Assembly: GCF_026768455.1 (NCBI RefSeq) | Contig: NZ_JAPPVQ010000003.1 | Location: forward strand, 1-32,631 | Length of the DNA: 32,631 bases | Direction of reading: 5' to 3' | Source of the DNA: Candidatus Nitrosotenuis cloacae | Lineage (GTDB): Archaea > Thermoproteota > Nitrososphaeria > Nitrososphaerales > Nitrosopumilaceae | Shown here: positions 680 to 26,214 of the stretch, in pieces | Numbering within the stretch: position 1 is the first letter of the stretch | How the letters are laid out: every line of letters starts with the position of its first letter | Position numbers and translations under genes: made by a program | The notes under the pieces: model-generated | The model's input: the letters and a program-made list of their open reading frames with translations, nothing else | Databases searched by the model: none | What the model was told of the DNA's origin: nothing

Positions 680-1480
680 CTATTCCCGAAGCTTGTTTTC
701 TTGGAATATCTCGGATTCGTACCAGGTGTATCTGAAATAGTCAAGACACCACTCGTGGAACATCGGATCCGTGCTGTAGAACATCTCTGTCATCTCCGGC
801 TCCCCCTCGATGTTAGGAAACGAGACGCATGCCTCCTTTTCGTTGAGAACGACCAAGACTTGGACATTTTTTTGCATCTTTCTTTCTACTAGGCCCTTTT
901 CAATCAGCTTGTCGTAGTTTAGCTTTTGCAGCAGCTTCTTTCTCCCCTTGGGAATTATTGCGGACTCGGATAAAATGTAGTTAAATTTTACGCCCTTTTC
1001 AATCCGCTTGACTTTTGGCTCGATTATGTCAAGCGGTATCTCGGTGAGTATCTCATAGATGTACTTGTCTGCGTTCTTGTATATCGATTTCCATTGCTCA
1101 AGTATCTTTACCACACTCTTGATGTGGGTGGAATTCGCAAGCTGCCCTATTCTCATGATGAATTTGGAGGGGATGTTGCCGAAATTGTGATCCTCAAAGT
1201 ATTTTCTGTTCTGTGACAGAAATATTATGGACGGCATCTGCGAGCATATGGTCTTGCCGTAGGTGGTAAGGGAATAATACCCGTCCATGTCCTTTGTGAT
1301 GAATCCGCCGTCTTCCAGGCGCGCAAAGTTCCTGTGTACCTCCTGTACCGTAGCCCCCAGATCCTTTGCCATCGAGGTCACCTTTGACTTTTTTTCCAGT
1401 AATCGAAATATTATGTGCAGCCTCTGCTGGCTGGATAGTTCCAGAAAATTGTTTGCCGCCTCCTCATAGTGATCTGTCAT
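680..1480 (-). CDS. winged-helix transcriptional regulator, DUF1724/COG4742-like, 266 aa
   Basis: The N-terminal 90 residues carry a winged helix-turn-helix (LSSQQRLHIIFRLL, VTSMAKDLGATVQEVHRNFARLEDGGFI, DGYYSLTTYGKTI). The rest matches the layout of the archaeal DUF1724-type regulators, with the hallmark stretch LSQNRKYFEDHNFGNIPSKF after the wing and a C-terminal alpha/beta domain thought to sense an unknown signal. Start at ATG 1480; the longer frame to 1594 would run into the upstream SDR gene. An AT-rich element near 1505-1515 is a possible TATA box. It follows the SDR gene by 43 bp on the same strand, so the two may be cotranscribed. DNA target unknown. Confidence 0.75.
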   Translation of the reverse strand: MTDHYEEAANNFLELSSQQRLHIIFRLLEKKSKVTSMAKDLGATVQEVHRNFARLEDGGFITKDMDGYYSLTTYGKTICSQMPSIIFLSQNRKYFEDHNFGNIPSKFIMRIGQLANSTHIKSVVKILEQWKSIYKNADKYIYEILTEIPLDIIEPKVKRIEKGVKFNYILSESAIIPKGRKKLLQKLNYDKLIEKGLVERKMQKNVQVLVVLNEKEACVSFPNIEGEPEMTEMFYSTDPMFHEWCLDYFRYTWYESEIFQENKLRE

Positions 1481-1523: not shown

Positions 1524-2879
1524 TTACGCAGGCCTTCCCCGAAACTGGTACGACTGTATCTTGTGAAACACGTTGTGAGATGCTGCAATTGCAATAATGG
1601 CTATGCCGACGCCGACAAAGTTTCTGATAGTCATCGGCAGGCTTGGCTGCCTTGCTAGAACAGAGTCATGGAACACCACATAAGAGTTGTCAAATAGCCA
1701 GAATCCAAGCGTGACCCAAGACAGTACTCCTGCCATCAGGTAGCCAAGCCGTGTCTTGTTACTCACGAATATTATTGAGATCATTATGACTGCAAACCAT
1801 GCGGCCGAAATGGCAATCCAGGCGGAATTGTACACGTCTGCACGGTCGTCAAGCCAGTAATAGGTAGTTCCGATCATCGACATTGCAACCATTGATAGCA
1901 CCAACAGGCGCTGATTTGCCACAAAGCTCGTCCTGCTTTCCCCAATCTCCTCAGGAGGGGGATTTTCTCTCATCTGCTCCGTAGCTATGTGGATTGCCTC
2001 CCGTACAGATTTAAGATTTAATGGAATTATTTTGGTTATAGAATCATCCTTTACTACAGTGTCATGAACTAGACTGTCGATAAGCGGCCTTGCAAGAGAT
2101 GCTTTGACTGGAGTGATCAGATCCACCCAATACGAGGACAGCCTTGTAGTGAGAAACGGAATATGCAGTACGAATAGTTTCTTGTCAAGATACGCCGAAT
2201 AGACACGCATTAGCTGTTCGTATGTCATCTTTTCCGTGCCCCCTATGTCAAATGTTCTGCCGGCGGTTTCCGGATGCTCCATGCATCCAATCAGATATTC
2301 TATTACGTCATCGACTGCAATTGGCTGAGCTACTGATTTTATCCATTTTGGGCACACCATTATCCTGAGTCGCTCAACGAGATACCGCAGCATAGCGTAC
2401 GAGCCTCCACCTGCACCGATGATAAGTGAGGCACGAAGCTGCGTCACAGGTATGTCTCCAGATGCAAGAATTTCTCCGACCTCCTTTCTGCTTTTCATGT
2501 GAGGTGAGAGATCCAGGCTTTCGTTGACCAGTCCGCCAAGGTAGATTATGCGTTTTACTTTGGCGTTGGTGGCGGCCTTTAGAAAATTCTGAGCTTGTTT
2601 TCGTTCCCTTGAGGCAAACTCTCTCCAGTGTTTTTTGTCACCCTCCATCGAATGTACCAGATAATACGCAGTGTTGATTCCAGCTAGGGCCGATTCAAGT
2701 TGTCTCTCGTCAAATAGATCCGCTCTTACAAACATGATGTTTTGTAGGTCGGGTTTGTTCCTTCGAGAGAGGGCCTTTACGGTGTATCCTCTGCCAATCA
2801 ATGAGTCAAGCAGTCTGGAGCCGATGAATCCAGTGGCTCCTGTAACCAGTATATCATAAGGCGATTTCTGAGGATTCAT
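1524..2879 (-). CDS. membrane-anchored NAD(P)-binding SDR-family protein (NmrA/YbjT-like), 451 aa
   Basis: Residues 1-300 are an atypical short-chain dehydrogenase: the Rossmann glycine motif VTGATGFIGSRLL at the N-terminus, the DTYYLVHSM-type strand (INTAYYLVHSMEG) and a late IGGTEKMTYEQLM segment. About 320-451 contains four predicted transmembrane helices (LLVLSMVAMSMIGTTYYWL; AWIAISAAWFAVIMISIIF; GYLMAGVLSWVTLGFWLF; RNFVGVGIAIIAIAA). Bacterial relatives of similar length (YbjT-like) instead carry DUF2867. The substrate is unknown; sugar, lipid or isoprenoid modification at the membrane is possible. ATG 2879 is used rather than GTG 2894. The promoter at 2965-3000 carries the same tandem repeat as the B12-sensor gene, from which this gene diverges, so it is probably controlled by that sensor. 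Confidence 0.85.
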   Translation of the reverse strand: MNPQKSPYDILVTGATGFIGSRLLDSLIGRGYTVKALSRRNKPDLQNIMFVRADLFDERQLESALAGINTAYYLVHSMEGDKKHWREFASRERKQAQNFLKAATNAKVKRIIYLGGLVNESLDLSPHMKSRKEVGEILASGDIPVTQLRASLIIGAGGGSYAMLRYLVERLRIMVCPKWIKSVAQPIAVDDVIEYLIGCMEHPETAGRTFDIGGTEKMTYEQLMRVYSAYLDKKLFVLHIPFLTTRLSSYWVDLITPVKASLARPLIDSLVHDTVVKDDSITKIIPLNLKSVREAIHIATEQMRENPPPEEIGESRTSFVANQRLLVLSMVAMSMIGTTYYWLDDRADVYNSAWIAISAAWFAVIMISIIFVSNKTRLGYLMAGVLSWVTLGFWLFDNSYVVFHDSVLARQPSLPMTIRNFVGVGIAIIAIAASHNVFHKIQSYQFRGRPA

Positions 2880-2964: not shown

Positions 2965-3000
2965 ATATAAACTAGTGATAAGCAACTTGCCTAGTGCCAA
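2965..3000 (-). promoter_or_regulatory. promoter P1 of the SDR gene with tandem CACTAG repeats
   Basis: Read on the minus strand: TTGGCACTAG (3000-2991), 9 nt, TTATCACTAG (2981-2972), then directly the TATA box TTTATAT (2971-2965). The last 17 nt are identical to the promoter at 3972-3988 on the other strand. Half-sites are 19 nt apart start to start, near two helical turns on one DNA face. Transcription should begin near 2940, leaving a leader of about 60 nt before ATG 2879, unlike most genes here. Confidence 0.75.
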
Positions 3001-3043
3001 ATGTCAGGATGGTTGGCATTTCCCGCAAAACGCGTATAGTGTG

Positions 3044-3080
3044 TTAGCACTAGGCATCAAGGTTAGCATTATTTATTAAT
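3044..3080 (+). promoter_or_regulatory. promoter P2 of the B12-sensor gene with tandem repeats
   Basis: TTAGCACTAG (3044-3053), 9 nt, TTAGCATTAT (3063-3072), then an AT-rich box A (TTATTAA, about 3073-3079) some 25 nt before ATG 3101. Half-site spacing is 19 nt, as in P1 and P3; the second half-site is the most divergent of the set. The first half-site also forms a perfect 10-bp inverted repeat with 2988-2997 of P1. Suggests autoregulation. Confidence 0.65.
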
Positions 3081-3100
3081 TTCATGCTGGAAAATTACGC

Positions 3101-3934
3101 ATGGTTTACCTGCGTGCCAAGGTTGTCAAGGGCGAAAAGTACCTTTACCTAGTTAGGAGTGTCTGGGATGCAGAGAGGAGCACATCTAAACAAGAGACCG
3201 TAAAGTATCTGGGTAAGGCGTCAGACATTACCAAGGACGACATACCACATGAGTATAGGAACGATCCCAAGATAGTCTCGTTTCTTGCATCAGACGAGGC
3301 AATGGATCTCAAAAAGAGAGAAGAGATGCTCTCGGATCTAAGAGATCAGCTATTCCGTTGCTTTATGCGCGGAGATGTTGAGGATGCAAAAAAGGTATAT
3401 GACGATTACAGTGTGCATTCCGGCACTGCTAACTTTTTTGAGAGGATCTTGACCCCGGTCATGTACAAGGTAGGCGATCTCTGGGCCAGAAACAAGATCA
3501 GCATAGCAGACGAACATGTGTGTAGTAATGTTGCAAACACACTGGTCAAGACCATATTTGAGAGTAACATGACGCGCCCCACAAAAAAGAAGGTACTTGT
3601 GTGCACCCCAGAAGGCGAGCACCACAATTTGGGTGCAAATATTCTAGAGTCACACTTGTCGTGTCACGGATTCAAGGTATACAATCTGTCCCCGTCTGAG
3701 CCGCATGAATCCATCGTAAGATATATCGAGTCGACAAAACCGGATGCAGTGTTTGTTTCCATCACACTCACCGACAACATCAAGCCCGGCCAGAGGCTCG
3801 TAAAGAAGATCAGGGAGAGGACGGCTGTACCAGTTTTTGTTGGAGGCCAGGCAGTCAGAGAAGGCAGCGCCAAATTCGAAGCCGAGGTGATCCGAGATTC
3901 TAGCCTGAAAAGCCTCCAAAAGATCATTGCGTGA
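3101..3934 (+). CDS. cobalamin-binding sensor/regulator resembling CarH/LitR, 277 aa
   Basis: Residues 1-60 form a basic, strand-rich module (VYLRAKVVKGEKYLYLVRSV, ETVKYLGK) like the N-terminal domain of IS1634-type transposases; it replaces the MerR domain of bacterial CarH. Residues about 70-150 look like the four-helix cap of B12-binding proteins and hold W128-x9-E138-H139, the Wx9EH signature of CarH photoreceptors. Residues 163-277 are the Rossmann-like B12 domain with E173-x-H175-x2-G178, H175 being the expected lower cobalt ligand. A129 occupies the place of the CarH histidine that binds cobalt after photolysis, so light sensing by the exact CarH mechanism is uncertain; redox or B12-level sensing is an alternative. 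No methyltransferase or mutase partner is nearby. Leaderless ATG 3101 follows box A. Confidence 0.8.
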   Translation: MVYLRAKVVKGEKYLYLVRSVWDAERSTSKQETVKYLGKASDITKDDIPHEYRNDPKIVSFLASDEAMDLKKREEMLSDLRDQLFRCFMRGDVEDAKKVYDDYSVHSGTANFFERILTPVMYKVGDLWARNKISIADEHVCSNVANTLVKTIFESNMTRPTKKKVLVCTPEGEHHNLGANILESHLSCHGFKVYNLSPSEPHESIVRYIESTKPDAVFVSITLTDNIKPGQRLVKKIRERTAVPVFVGGQAVREGSAKFEAEVIRDSSLKSLQKIIA

Positions 3935-3952
3935 GTAAATCAAAACGCAAAA

Positions 3953-3988
3953 TTAGCACTAGTAAATAATTTTATCACTAGTTTATAT
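3953..3988 (+). promoter_or_regulatory. promoter P3 of the exported Lys-rich protein gene with tandem repeats
   Basis: TTAGCACTAG (3953-3962), 9 nt, TTATCACTAG (3972-3981), then directly TATA box TTTATAT (3982-3988), about 27 nt before ATG 4012. It is the cleanest copy of the motif. The position abutting box A suggests that a bound factor would block TBP/TFB, i.e. repression. Confidence 0.75.
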
Positions 3989-4011
3989 AATAAAAATGCC
4001 AGTATTCATCA

Positions 4012-4779
4012 ATGAAAAACAGTTCAACAACAAACAGTTCCAAGAGTAAAGACTTGAAACTTGTGTCACTTGTTGCAGCCACAGTATTGCTCTTCAGCGT
4101 TGTTGCAGTATCAAGCAGCATTGCCGTGTTTGCAGACACATCAAGTGACAAGGCAAAAGATGCAAAGGAAAAACCCAAGACCGGAAAGGACGAAAAAGCA
4201 AAGAAGCATGTCAAGGCAACAAAAGCCTCCAAGACAGAGACGAACAGGAAGGCAGTTCAGACGCCCAAACAAACTTCGACAAGTACGGTGGAGGCTGAGC
4301 TAAAGGCGTGCCAGCAGAAAGAAACAGGCAGGGAAAAGTACGAGTGTGAAAAAGCCGTAAAGGCAAAACAAGCTGCTTCAGACAGCATGACAGGATCGAC
4401 AAAATACGTCATAGGGCCAGTCACATTCTACTATGCTGGCGCCAAGGTCGAAAAGGGCGGACAGAAAGACATAGTCAACCTCAAGTTCACAGTAGAGAAC
4501 ACGGGATCAAAGGATAATGTGACGCTTTACTGCACAGGTCCGGCTGCCTGCAATTATTCCGTCTCAGACGGCAAGACCACCTACAGGTATTCAGCCCAGG
4601 ACTTTACAAATGGACAGATCGTACTAAAACCGGGAGCATCAAGGACGTTTAACATGCTGTTTGGCCCTGCAATCGGCTACGGCAGCTACGTTGACTTCAA
4701 GTTCGATGCCTCAAAGCAGTACACCTTCAACGTAAACGAGCCATGGGGAACCGGAAGCATTCCGCTGAACCTCAAATGA
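4012..4779 (+). CDS. exported lysine-rich protein with beta-sandwich domain, 255 aa
   Basis: Residues 15-42 form a signal peptide or N-terminal anchor (LVSLVAATVLLFSVVAV, ending AVFADT). Residues 43-95 are a low-complexity Lys/Thr/Ala linker. Residues 96-125 contain C100 and C112 in a helical segment. Residues 132-255 look like a beta-sandwich of CARDB/Ig type (IVNLKFTVENTGSKDNVTLY) with C174 and C180 probably disulfide-bonded. It should act outside the membrane; no catalytic motif is seen and the ligand is unknown. It follows the B12-sensor gene by 77 bp but has its own promoter P3 of the same design. It converges on the next gene, 14 bp away. Confidence 0.75.
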   Translation: MKNSSTTNSSKSKDLKLVSLVAATVLLFSVVAVSSSIAVFADTSSDKAKDAKEKPKTGKDEKAKKHVKATKASKTETNRKAVQTPKQTSTSTVEAELKACQQKETGREKYECEKAVKAKQAASDSMTGSTKYVIGPVTFYYAGAKVEKGGQKDIVNLKFTVENTGSKDNVTLYCTGPAACNYSVSDGKTTYRYSAQDFTNGQIVLKPGASRTFNMLFGPAIGYGSYVDFKFDASKQYTFNVNEPWGTGSIPLNLK

Positions 4780-14955: not shown

Positions 14956-15050
14956 GCCCTAGTTTTGCGTCGGATGGATTTATCAGAGTACGACAATTTT
15001 CAGCACTAGTAATCGTGTTTAGCAAAAGTCTTGCAATAAAAAATGAAAGA

Positions 15051-23337: not shown

Positions 23338-25992
23338 TTAGCCTGACGTACAGCCGCTAAATCCGCACTCTATGCAGATGCTACATCCCTCTACAAACAC
23401 AAGCTTGTTCTTGCACGACGGGCAGAGCATCTCTTCTGATATCTCTTCTTTTGCTTCGCTTTGCATGAGCGGCTCTTCTGGAATCTTTAGCTCAAGTGCG
23501 TTGTTTACCATGTTTCGAATGTACGGGTTCTTGATGCTCTTTGCAATGAACTCGTGCAGGTATGAGCTAGGCTCCACTTCGAAGAGTTTCTCTGCGTTGT
23601 CGCTGGTCATGTGCAGTACCTGGGTGTGTCTTGAGCCGTCACGGTACACCGTGATTCCCTTGAGCCCAAGTTCGTGCGCAAGAAGGTATGCTGCCTTTAC
23701 ATCATCTGCAGATACGTCGTGAGGCATGTTGATCGTCTTTGCGATTGCGTTACCAATCCAGTCCTGCCATACTGCCTGCGCCATCAGGTGATCTGACCAG
23801 TGAATGTCCATTGCTGTGACAAAGATGTTCTGAATCCATTCCGGCACCTCCTTGAGGCCCTTTACGGAGCCATAGTTGTCCGCAATCTTTGCCAGAAGCT
23901 CGTCACTGTACAGCCCGTTTTCTCGCAGCACCTGCTCGAAGATCTTGTTGGTATAGAAGAACCTTCCAACGGTTACGCGCTTTTCAAACACTAGTGCAAA
24001 TGTGGGTTCCATTCCGTTTGAGCAGTCCGCAATCATGGAAAGCGTTCCTGTCGGCGCTACAGTAGTGGTCAGCACGTTTCTGATTCCGTGCTTTTGGATG
24101 TTTGCAATGAGTGCGTCCCAGTCGTAATAGTGGCCGCCCTTTGGCTTTTCATAATATCCAGAAACTGGAATCTTGCCCTCTGGGTATTCGGTCCTTGAGC
24201 ACAGATCAAACTCGCCCCTTGAGCGTGCGAGCGCGATGCTTTCCTCCATGGAATAGTACGTGAGTGCCTCTGCAAGCTTTGATTGGAATTCGTATCCCTC
24301 CTTGGAGTTGTACGGGATCCTCAGCTTGTACAGAAGATCCGCCACGCCCATTACGCCCAGCCCGATTCTCCTTGACTCCTTTGATGCGGCGTCGATCTCT
24401 GGAACTGGATAGTGGTTCATGTCAATTACATTATCCAAGAATCGTGTCGTCTTGCGGATGGTCTCCTCGTACCTCTGCCAGTCAAACTCGTATTGGCCGT
24501 CGGCCTTTCTCTTGACAAGGTTTGCCAGATTGATTGAGCCGAGGTTACACGACTCGTATGGGTAGAGACTCTGCTCACCGCACGGGTTGGTAGCCCTCAG
24601 TGGCATACCCCTTGCCTTTGCAAAGACGTTGTACTTGTTGATGTTATCAAAGAAGATGAGTCCCGGCTCTGCGCTCTTCCATGCAGACAGTGCTATGATG
24701 TCAATCAGCTGGTGCGCGTTTATCTCGCGTACTGCAGACCTGTCTCTTGGGCTGCGCAGTGTGTATTTTCCGTCCGTGCTGTCAACTAGTGCGGACCAGA
24801 AGTCCTCCCAGATTCCAACGCTTACGTTAAAGTTCTCAAGTATGCCGGCCTGTGTCTTGTTGGTGATGAACTTTTCAACGTCCGGATGCCAGACCTCAAG
24901 TATGCCCATGTTGGCACCCCTTCTTTTTCCACCCTGCTTGACAACCTCCGTTACCGTGTTTATGATGTTCATAAACGAGACCGGTCCGGATGCCACGCCA
25001 GATGTGGATGCGACTATGTCGCCTTCATGTCTTAGATCAGAATAGTTGATCCCCACGCCGCCGCCTGATTTGAATATCAGTGCTGCGTCGGATGTTGACT
25101 TCATTATGTCTCCCATGTCGTCAGGCATGCCAAGAACAAAACATGCGGACAATTGCCCAAGTCTTGCTCCCGCATTCATCATGGTTGGCGAGTTTGGCAG
25201 GAAGTCCTGCTCTGTCATCAGGGTGTAGTATTCCTGGATGCGCTCTGCATAGTTGTCAAACTTTTTGGCTGCAAGCAGTGTTAGGATCTCCTTGAAGCTC
25301 TTCTTCATCTGTCCGCGCTTTGCAAGATAGATGTAGTGGTTGATGAGTCCCCTAAAGTGATATTTGTTTAGGTAATAGCTGCCAACTCTGAACTTGTATT
25401 CAAAGTCGTCAAGCTTTGTAAGATACCTTTTTGCCTCCTCGATGTCCTGCGGTGCACCCCTGTCCTTTGAGTACAGTTCGTTGTCGTACAGGATATCTCC
25501 GATTCCCACAAGTATTGCCACTCTCTCAAACATCTGGGTCGGGCTTTCTACGATCTCGTTCTTGTTGTTTCTGAGAAGGTATCTAGATGCCAGTACTCGC
25601 AGGCAGTTGAGGTCAAACGACTTTGCTACAGAGTCGAGTGATTTTGTGTTAAGCACCTTCATCTTGTCTTCGCGGACCTTGCGGCGCTCGTGTCGGTACA
25701 AAATGTAGGACTTTGCAATCTCTCCATAACCCTTTTCGATCAGGGTGGATTCCACCATATCCTGAACGTCCTCTACGCTCGGCGGATTTGCGGCGGAAAA
25801 TCCTTGTGATATTAGCTTACTTAAGACGCCTGATGTTAGATCATCGGCGATTCTTCGATCTGGGTTGCCGTTAGCAACCAAAGCCTTGTAGATCGCATTT
25901 GTTATTTTTTCTTTGTTAAAGTTCGTAATTCGGCCGTCTCTCTTCTTAACGTCAACGATTGAACTTTCAATTTGTGAAAAATCTGTTGTCAT
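23338..25992 (-). CDS. nrdJ: adenosylcobalamin-dependent ribonucleotide reductase (class II), 884 aa
   Basis: Reduces ribonucleotides to deoxyribonucleotides with an AdoCbl-generated thiyl radical, needing no oxygen. An ATP-cone (about 10-105, VKKRDGRITNFNKEKITNAIYKAL) is followed by the ten-stranded barrel with LSACFVLGMPD, the N-x-C-x-E active site in ATNPCGEQSLYPYESCNLGSINL, TTVAPTGTLSMIADCSNGMEP in the substrate loop, and a C-terminal CPSCKNK...CSICIECGFSGC zinc/redox tail that reduces the active-site disulfide. ATG 25992 is preferred to GTG 26007; GAGGGG precedes it. It lies next to an NrdD-like regulator candidate. Confidence 0.96.
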   Translation of the reverse strand: MTTDFSQIESSIVDVKKRDGRITNFNKEKITNAIYKALVANGNPDRRIADDLTSGVLSKLISQGFSAANPPSVEDVQDMVESTLIEKGYGEIAKSYILYRHERRKVREDKMKVLNTKSLDSVAKSFDLNCLRVLASRYLLRNNKNEIVESPTQMFERVAILVGIGDILYDNELYSKDRGAPQDIEEAKRYLTKLDDFEYKFRVGSYYLNKYHFRGLINHYIYLAKRGQMKKSFKEILTLLAAKKFDNYAERIQEYYTLMTEQDFLPNSPTMMNAGARLGQLSACFVLGMPDDMGDIMKSTSDAALIFKSGGGVGINYSDLRHEGDIVASTSGVASGPVSFMNIINTVTEVVKQGGKRRGANMGILEVWHPDVEKFITNKTQAGILENFNVSVGIWEDFWSALVDSTDGKYTLRSPRDRSAVREINAHQLIDIIALSAWKSAEPGLIFFDNINKYNVFAKARGMPLRATNPCGEQSLYPYESCNLGSINLANLVKRKADGQYEFDWQRYEETIRKTTRFLDNVIDMNHYPVPEIDAASKESRRIGLGVMGVADLLYKLRIPYNSKEGYEFQSKLAEALTYYSMEESIALARSRGEFDLCSRTEYPEGKIPVSGYYEKPKGGHYYDWDALIANIQKHGIRNVLTTTVAPTGTLSMIADCSNGMEPTFALVFEKRVTVGRFFYTNKIFEQVLRENGLYSDELLAKIADNYGSVKGLKEVPEWIQNIFVTAMDIHWSDHLMAQAVWQDWIGNAIAKTINMPHDVSADDVKAAYLLAHELGLKGITVYRDGSRHTQVLHMTSDNAEKLFEVEPSSYLHEFIAKSIKNPYIRNMVNNALELKIPEEPLMQSEAKEEISEEMLCPSCKNKLVFVEGCSICIECGFSGCTSG

Positions 25993-26214
25993 AATGTCTC
26001 CCCTCACTAGGTAAAATCAGATGAGATATAACTCTGACTGCCAAAGATTTCAGATTTTAGCTCAATAATGTTTACACCGCTACGGGAAATTTCGGAATAG
26101 TTGTTCGTGGCCTGGGAAACGAATTCGGTTAATTTGCCAGATGATCCATTTGCCAAGAGGCGTAATGTTTTATCTGACAAAAATGAATGTTGCGGATTTC
26201 GATGGCAGGCGCGA

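Follow-up and report, generated by a model that had tools for sequence, protein, structure and literature searches.

A tandem operator and a CarH-like B12 sensor protein suggest a light-controlled promoter switch in ammonia-oxidizing archaea

Three promoters lying close together in the ammonia-oxidizing archaeon Candidatus Nitrosotenuis cloacae carry the same pair of directly repeated half-sites immediately before box A, and the gene in their midst (3101–3934) encodes a protein in which the cobalamin-binding module of the bacterial photoreceptor CarH follows a novel N-terminal domain. We consider that this protein is probably a B12-based transcriptional switch, CarH-like in its working and with a different DNA-binding domain, which acts as a repressor in the dark and is released by light. 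The double tag shared by the promoters suggests a light-controlled on/off switch of a kind not yet described in archaea. A little more guardedly, we favour the wider reading that a CarH-type photosensor fused to an unrecognised DNA-binding domain is the first archaeal B12 light switch. It would hold TBP/TFB promoters shut in the dark and, on illumination, open a regulon for photoprotection that comprises photolyase, redox proteins and exported proteins, and would do so in ammonia-oxidizing archaea of both the sea and fresh water. Such archaea are numerous in the ocean, and it is known that light affects their activity. No light-sensing regulator of theirs is described in the literature searched, nor is any CarH, LitR or photoreceptor in thaumarchaeota, most subscription papers lying outside its coverage; the initial annotation of the locus likewise knew of no archaeal equivalent. 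If the reading is right, the CarH photosensor has been adapted to archaeal transcription by way of a different DNA-binding domain, and the protein becomes a candidate for switching TBP/TFB promoters by light. The sensor, the operator and the list of targets are concrete enough to be tested in cultures.

A tandem element at three promoters

The window, that is, the whole stretch of 32,631 nucleotides that was analysed, contains the following features at this locus (positions are those of the window).

680–1480, minus strand: winged-HTH protein gene, downstream of the SDR gene; weak HVO_A0261_N match, widespread elsewhere
1524–2879, minus strand: P1 target, NmrA/SDR-type NAD(P)-binding protein; C-terminal membrane helices judged from sequence only
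2965–2971, minus strand: P1 box A, TTTATAT, abutting the P1 operator; read from the sequence
2972–3000, minus strand: P1 operator, TTGGCACTAG-GCAAGTTGC-TTATCACTAG, facing the SDR gene; exact pattern match and PWM
3044–3072, plus strand: P2 operator, TTAGCACTAG-GCATCAAGG-TTAGCATTAT, upstream of the sensor gene; exact match and PWM
3073–3080, plus strand: P2 box A, TTATTAAT; read from the sequence
3101–3934, plus strand: gene of the CarH-like B12 sensor/regulator, 277 aa; novel N-terminal domain (residues 1–66), then two B12-module domains
3953–3981, plus strand: P3 operator, TTAGCACTAG-TAAATAATT-TTATCACTAG, upstream of the exported-protein gene; exact match and PWM
3982–3990, plus strand: P3 box A, TTTATATAA; read from the sequence
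4012–4779, plus strand: P3 target, exported protein; its signal peptide was read from the sequence

The element TTRGCACTAG-N9-TTAKCAYTAK has three exact copies in the whole genome (1,677,461 b), all at this locus and each adjoining a box A, and allowing up to two mismatches returns the same three sites, all inside 1 kb. At up to three mismatches the window holds 4 matches, with 0.01 expected from dinucleotide shuffles. The PWM scores of the three sites are 31.0, 29.0 and 28.4, the next best match in the window scoring 15.8. The half-sites repeat with a period of 19 nt at P1, P2 and P3, and 17 nt (TTATCACTAGTTTATAT) are common to P1 and P3 on opposite strands. Both the bipartite element directly before box A at P1–P3 and this 17-nt identity had been read in the initial annotation, and both are exact. 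The operator lies 28 nt from the ATG at P2 and 30 nt at P3, a leaderless geometry, and about 93 nt from the ATG of the SDR gene at P1.

A fourth candidate, at 15000–15028 on the plus strand, was rejected. It is the one site with three mismatches in the genome, which is no more than the controls give; it lacks a box A, and no gene on its strand starts at a suitable distance. This degenerate copy has a small, leftward gene for an exported protein on one side and the neighbour of that gene on the other.

The sensor protein and its domains

The protein divides into three parts.

3101–3298, plus strand (residues 1–66): N-terminal domain, putative DNA-binding part, predicted beta-beta-beta-alpha
residues 80–150: helical upper-ligand-capping domain, PF02607 match
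residues 164–253: B12-binding Rossmann domain, PF02310 match

Among solved structures, CarH of Thermus thermophilus (TtCarH) is the best match in both sequence and fold, and the CarH matches begin at residue 77–79; the score against the CarH equivalog NF052513 is 70.7 bits, below the curated cut-off of 400. A working CarH sensor is marked by the motifs Wx9EH, which is described as crucial for photoreceptor activity, and D/ExHx2G/P-x41-SxT/V-x22-27-GG (PMC9304148). The archaeal protein has both, the Ado-capping motif as W128-x9-E138-H139 and the B12-binding motif as E173-x-H175-x2-G178-x41-S220-x-T222-x25-G248-G249. Residues W128, E138, H139, E173, H175, S220, T222, G248 and G249 are invariant in 81 sequences and G178 is kept in 80 of them. 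The Arg–Asp pair that forms the dimer salt bridge of TtCarH is not kept, the equivalents, aligned by hand, being E, D, H or Q at position 174 and mostly S at 199. In light-state TtCarH, His132 is a cobalt ligand (bis-His adduct), and such a His is found in many, though not all, CarH proteins. The corresponding His after the Trp (position 129) is absent here, its place being taken by A, S, E, D, Q and others; it appears neither among the residues counted in the 81 sequences nor in a 17-row alignment. With this His and the Arg–Asp pair both missing, the light chemistry and the oligomer may differ from those of TtCarH. AdoCbl is probably available in the cell, since the genome encodes a cobalamin adenosyltransferase and the window (23338–26007) a ribonucleotide reductase that we take to be of the B12-dependent class. 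Seven genomes (G127, G162, G234, G224, G228, G226 and G115) have a second copy of the protein, more divergent than the first.

The N-terminal domain is predicted to form three long antiparallel strands and a helix (pLDDT 89). No MerR winged helix-turn-helix was matched in the sensor protein by Pfam or NCBIfam, and searches of Pfam, PDB sequences and PDB folds with the N-terminal domain gave nothing significant; its sheet may resemble the three-strand sheets of AP2/integrase type. No other part of the protein is as well conserved, the mean identity being 69% over residues 1–50 against 48% over residues 80–277, and in these archaea the domain occurs about once per genome, on the sensor protein. 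A weak relative is found on two proteins (L197:633–1520 and L198:652–1563, both minus strand) that, from their HPFGDGNGR motif, can be read as Fic-domain proteins. Their N-terminus, MVTIKKKRIKGQTYYYLEHS...YLG, weakly matches that of the regulator, and a domain common to the two kinds of protein is possibly a mobile archaeal domain.

Conservation of the operator and its target genes

Paired half-sites stand before the start codon of the carH-like gene in 79 of the 80 named loci, which come from Nitrosotenuis, Nitrosopumilus, Nitrosarchaeum, Nitrosopelagicus and others. The PWM was trained on 63 of these operator sites, so that for those loci the conservation test is partly circular; the shifted Nitrosopelagicus-type sites stood outside the training set. 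At a score of at least 10 it gives 242 matches, compared with 2 for the reversed PWM (1.29 Mb). Among 200 Nitrosopumilaceae genomes the strict motif is present in 59, and 56 of the 59 have a carH-like gene; put the other way, it is found in 56 of 90 genomes with the gene and in 3 of 110 without it (Fisher p = 5e-22), and the reversed strict pattern has no match in the 200. Relatedness inflates such co-occurrence tests, and the association was therefore also stratified by genus (CMH p = 5e-14). The initial annotation had proposed to look for the bipartite motif beside orthologues in related genomes, and on these counts its expectation is strongly upheld. Strict operators are found with no detectable carH in three genomes (G079, G147 and G230), two of which have a photolyase; a gap in the assembly, a recent loss of the gene or a different binder may lie behind these cases.

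Most species have 27–30 nt between the end of the element and the start codon, with box A directly after the element, as in a leaderless archaeal promoter; this places half-site 2 on the BRE. In the Nitrosopelagicus-type loci (L124–L144) the operator lies ~ 15–44 nt before the carH start, that is, moved ~ 13 nt startward, with a 10-nt spacer and with box A (CTTATTA) at the border of the spacer and half-site 2; this is a natural variant of the promoter architecture. The carH orthologues from two further families retain the element as well, their half-sites separated by 8, 9 or 10 nt, and across orthologues the period at the sensor gene is 18–21 nt. The 19-nt period put forward in the initial annotation thus holds at P1–P3 but not as a rule, spacers being 8–11 nt among orthologues and 7–11 nt at other targets; it is the usual form and not the sole one.

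The genes tagged by the operator extend beyond those of the window. An SDR homologue is present in 61 of the 80 loci and is preceded by the operator in 20 of the 61. Homologues of the P3 target occur in 49 of the 80; its C-terminal region is common to the ‘VPxWVKNNAGWW’ exported proteins, which are likewise tagged, and the exported-protein group as a whole is tagged in 19 of 64 cases. Also tagged are a CrtI/HpnE-superfamily flavoprotein (30 of 41, mostly at 28–29 nt), a family of 191-aa proteins (16 of 26), plastocyanin-like proteins (8 of 9) and some small proteins. An assignment of the flavoprotein to CrtI itself was rejected, its scores falling below every curated cut-off and supporting the HpnE/CrtI superfamily only. 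In two loci of another family, f2 (L173:9447, minus strand; L174:10789, plus strand), a second operator stands before the gene following carH, which is FAD/NAD(P) oxidoreductase-like (‘VVAGAGYAGxTASxxLDG’). A TFB paralogue, matched by Pfam, lies in the carH cluster of a Nitrosopumilus-type locus (L084:13800–14702), and TFB-like frames were seen by eye in other clusters of this type (for example L092:11378–12298).

In a genome of the same genus (L179:7245–9408) a DNA photolyase, identified by its family match, starts 2 nt behind the sensor gene on the same strand, with one operator upstream of the pair and another same-strand gene after it, and in several other genomes a photolyase lies within 3 kb of the sensor gene. 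Of the 40 photolyase genomes among the 200, 38 have the sensor gene (p = 1e-13; within-genus p = 5e-7). The window's own genome has no photolyase. Photolyases are known from thaumarchaeota of sunlit waters (PMC9239080), and the literature searched yielded no regulator of these enzymes.

Proposed switch and its relation to known B12 photoreceptors

Homology and geometry suggest B12 binding, a response to light, DNA binding by the sensor protein and the sign of the regulation. In the dark, AdoCbl would be held between the helical cap (W128, E138, H139) and the Rossmann domain, with H175 as the lower ligand, and would stabilise an oligomer whose N-terminal beta-sheet domains bind the pair of directly repeated 10-nt half-sites, usually with a 19-nt period. 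The second of these would coincide with the BRE and abut box A, so that TBP and TFB could not assemble and the promoter would be off. Light would break the Co–C bond, the oligomer would fall apart and the promoters would fire. In the genome of the window the regulator would repress its own gene, the SDR gene and the exported-protein gene, and in relatives the repressed set would also include the photolyase gene of its own operon and further genes for photoprotection or redox functions. An operator over the BRE/TATA region fits repression by occlusion, and from the geometry both operator layouts would block TBP/TFB; for an activator, a site lying across the TATA box would be awkward. The initial annotation had pictured a small autoregulated regulon under a CarH-like repressor that blocks TBP/TFB. 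The conservation of the motif at orthologues and the position of the sites over BRE/TATA are in keeping with this, but the protein has no MerR domain and the regulon is larger in relatives, photolyase included.

It is unlikely that the operator-binding protein senses the B12 level or redox state instead of light, as a cobalamin-sufficiency switch in a B12-making archaeon. The missing equivalent of His132, the presence of the adenosyltransferase and the lack of photolyase in the window genome would all suit such a sensor, but photolyase is among the targets in relatives and tracks carH across the 200 genomes, genes for making or transporting B12 were not noticed among the targets, and the capping motif on which CarH photoreceptor activity depends (PMC9304148) is invariant in the 81 sequences. 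Less probable again is an activator that binds upstream of the BRE and recruits TFB, perhaps in one light state only. Sites abutting the promoter from upstream are typical also of archaeal activators and the orientation of the operator towards its gene is always the same; against this, half-site 2 covers the BRE itself and the carH operators of Nitrosopelagicus type lie across box A. The bacterial CarH proteins, moreover, are repressors (PMC9304148).

We give very little credence to a scheme in which some other factor, such as a TFB paralogue or the product of the winged-HTH gene at 680–1480, binds the tandem element and the B12 protein is merely a target or works off the DNA. The TFB paralogue and TFB-like frames in carH clusters, the three genomes that have sites without carH and the winged-HTH gene that adjoins carH in this genus could be cited in its favour. 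Yet the winged-HTH gene, present in 120 of the 200 genomes, shows no association with the motif (p = 0.27), by which it was rejected as the binder, and five genomes of the same genus have it with neither carH nor the motif. The motif tracks carH within genera, and it is the N-terminal domain of the sensor protein that is most strongly conserved.

As a proposed light-released repressor, the archaeal protein finds its closest parallel in the CarH/LitR group, the MerR-type AdoCbl photoreceptor repressors of T. thermophilus, B. megaterium and Myxococcus. The two have in common a bipartite cobalamin-binding module that carries both Wx9EH and the entire B12 motif, a tag on the regulator's own promoter, a direct-repeat operator over core promoter elements, and photoprotection genes nearby. 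They differ in that CarH/LitR have a MerR winged helix where the archaeal protein, in an archaeal host and lacking the His after the Trp, has an unrelated beta-sheet domain. The bacterial operator consists of three or four contiguous 11-bp nnnnTnnACAn direct repeats (PMC9304148) and overlaps the −35/−10 elements, whereas the archaeal one has two 10-nt half-sites, usually 19 nt apart, and overlaps BRE/TATA; TnnACA is not present in the half-sites of TTRGCACTAG type, either in the window or at orthologues. The likeness to the bacterial operator drawn in the initial annotation therefore extends to the direct repeats but not to contiguous 11-bp units. With neither the MerR domain nor the 11-bp operator, the protein should not be filed as CarH.

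The helical cap and Rossmann B12 fold are shared also with the MtaC/MtbC/MtgC corrinoid proteins and the B12 modules of methionine synthase, but these matches leave the N-terminal domain uncovered and score far below the match to CarH; the separate B12-domain proteins of 820–850 aa in these genomes are other genes. In the photocobilins and other B12 photoreceptor fusions (8j2w, 8j2y) a CarH-type B12 domain has likewise been recombined with other output domains. Those two are described as photocobilins or GGDEF-domain proteins, whereas the archaeal protein has a putative DNA-binding domain and operators of its own. As judged from its sequence, it is a CarH-type B12 photosensor placed on an unrelated, putatively DNA-binding domain and adapted to archaeal promoters.
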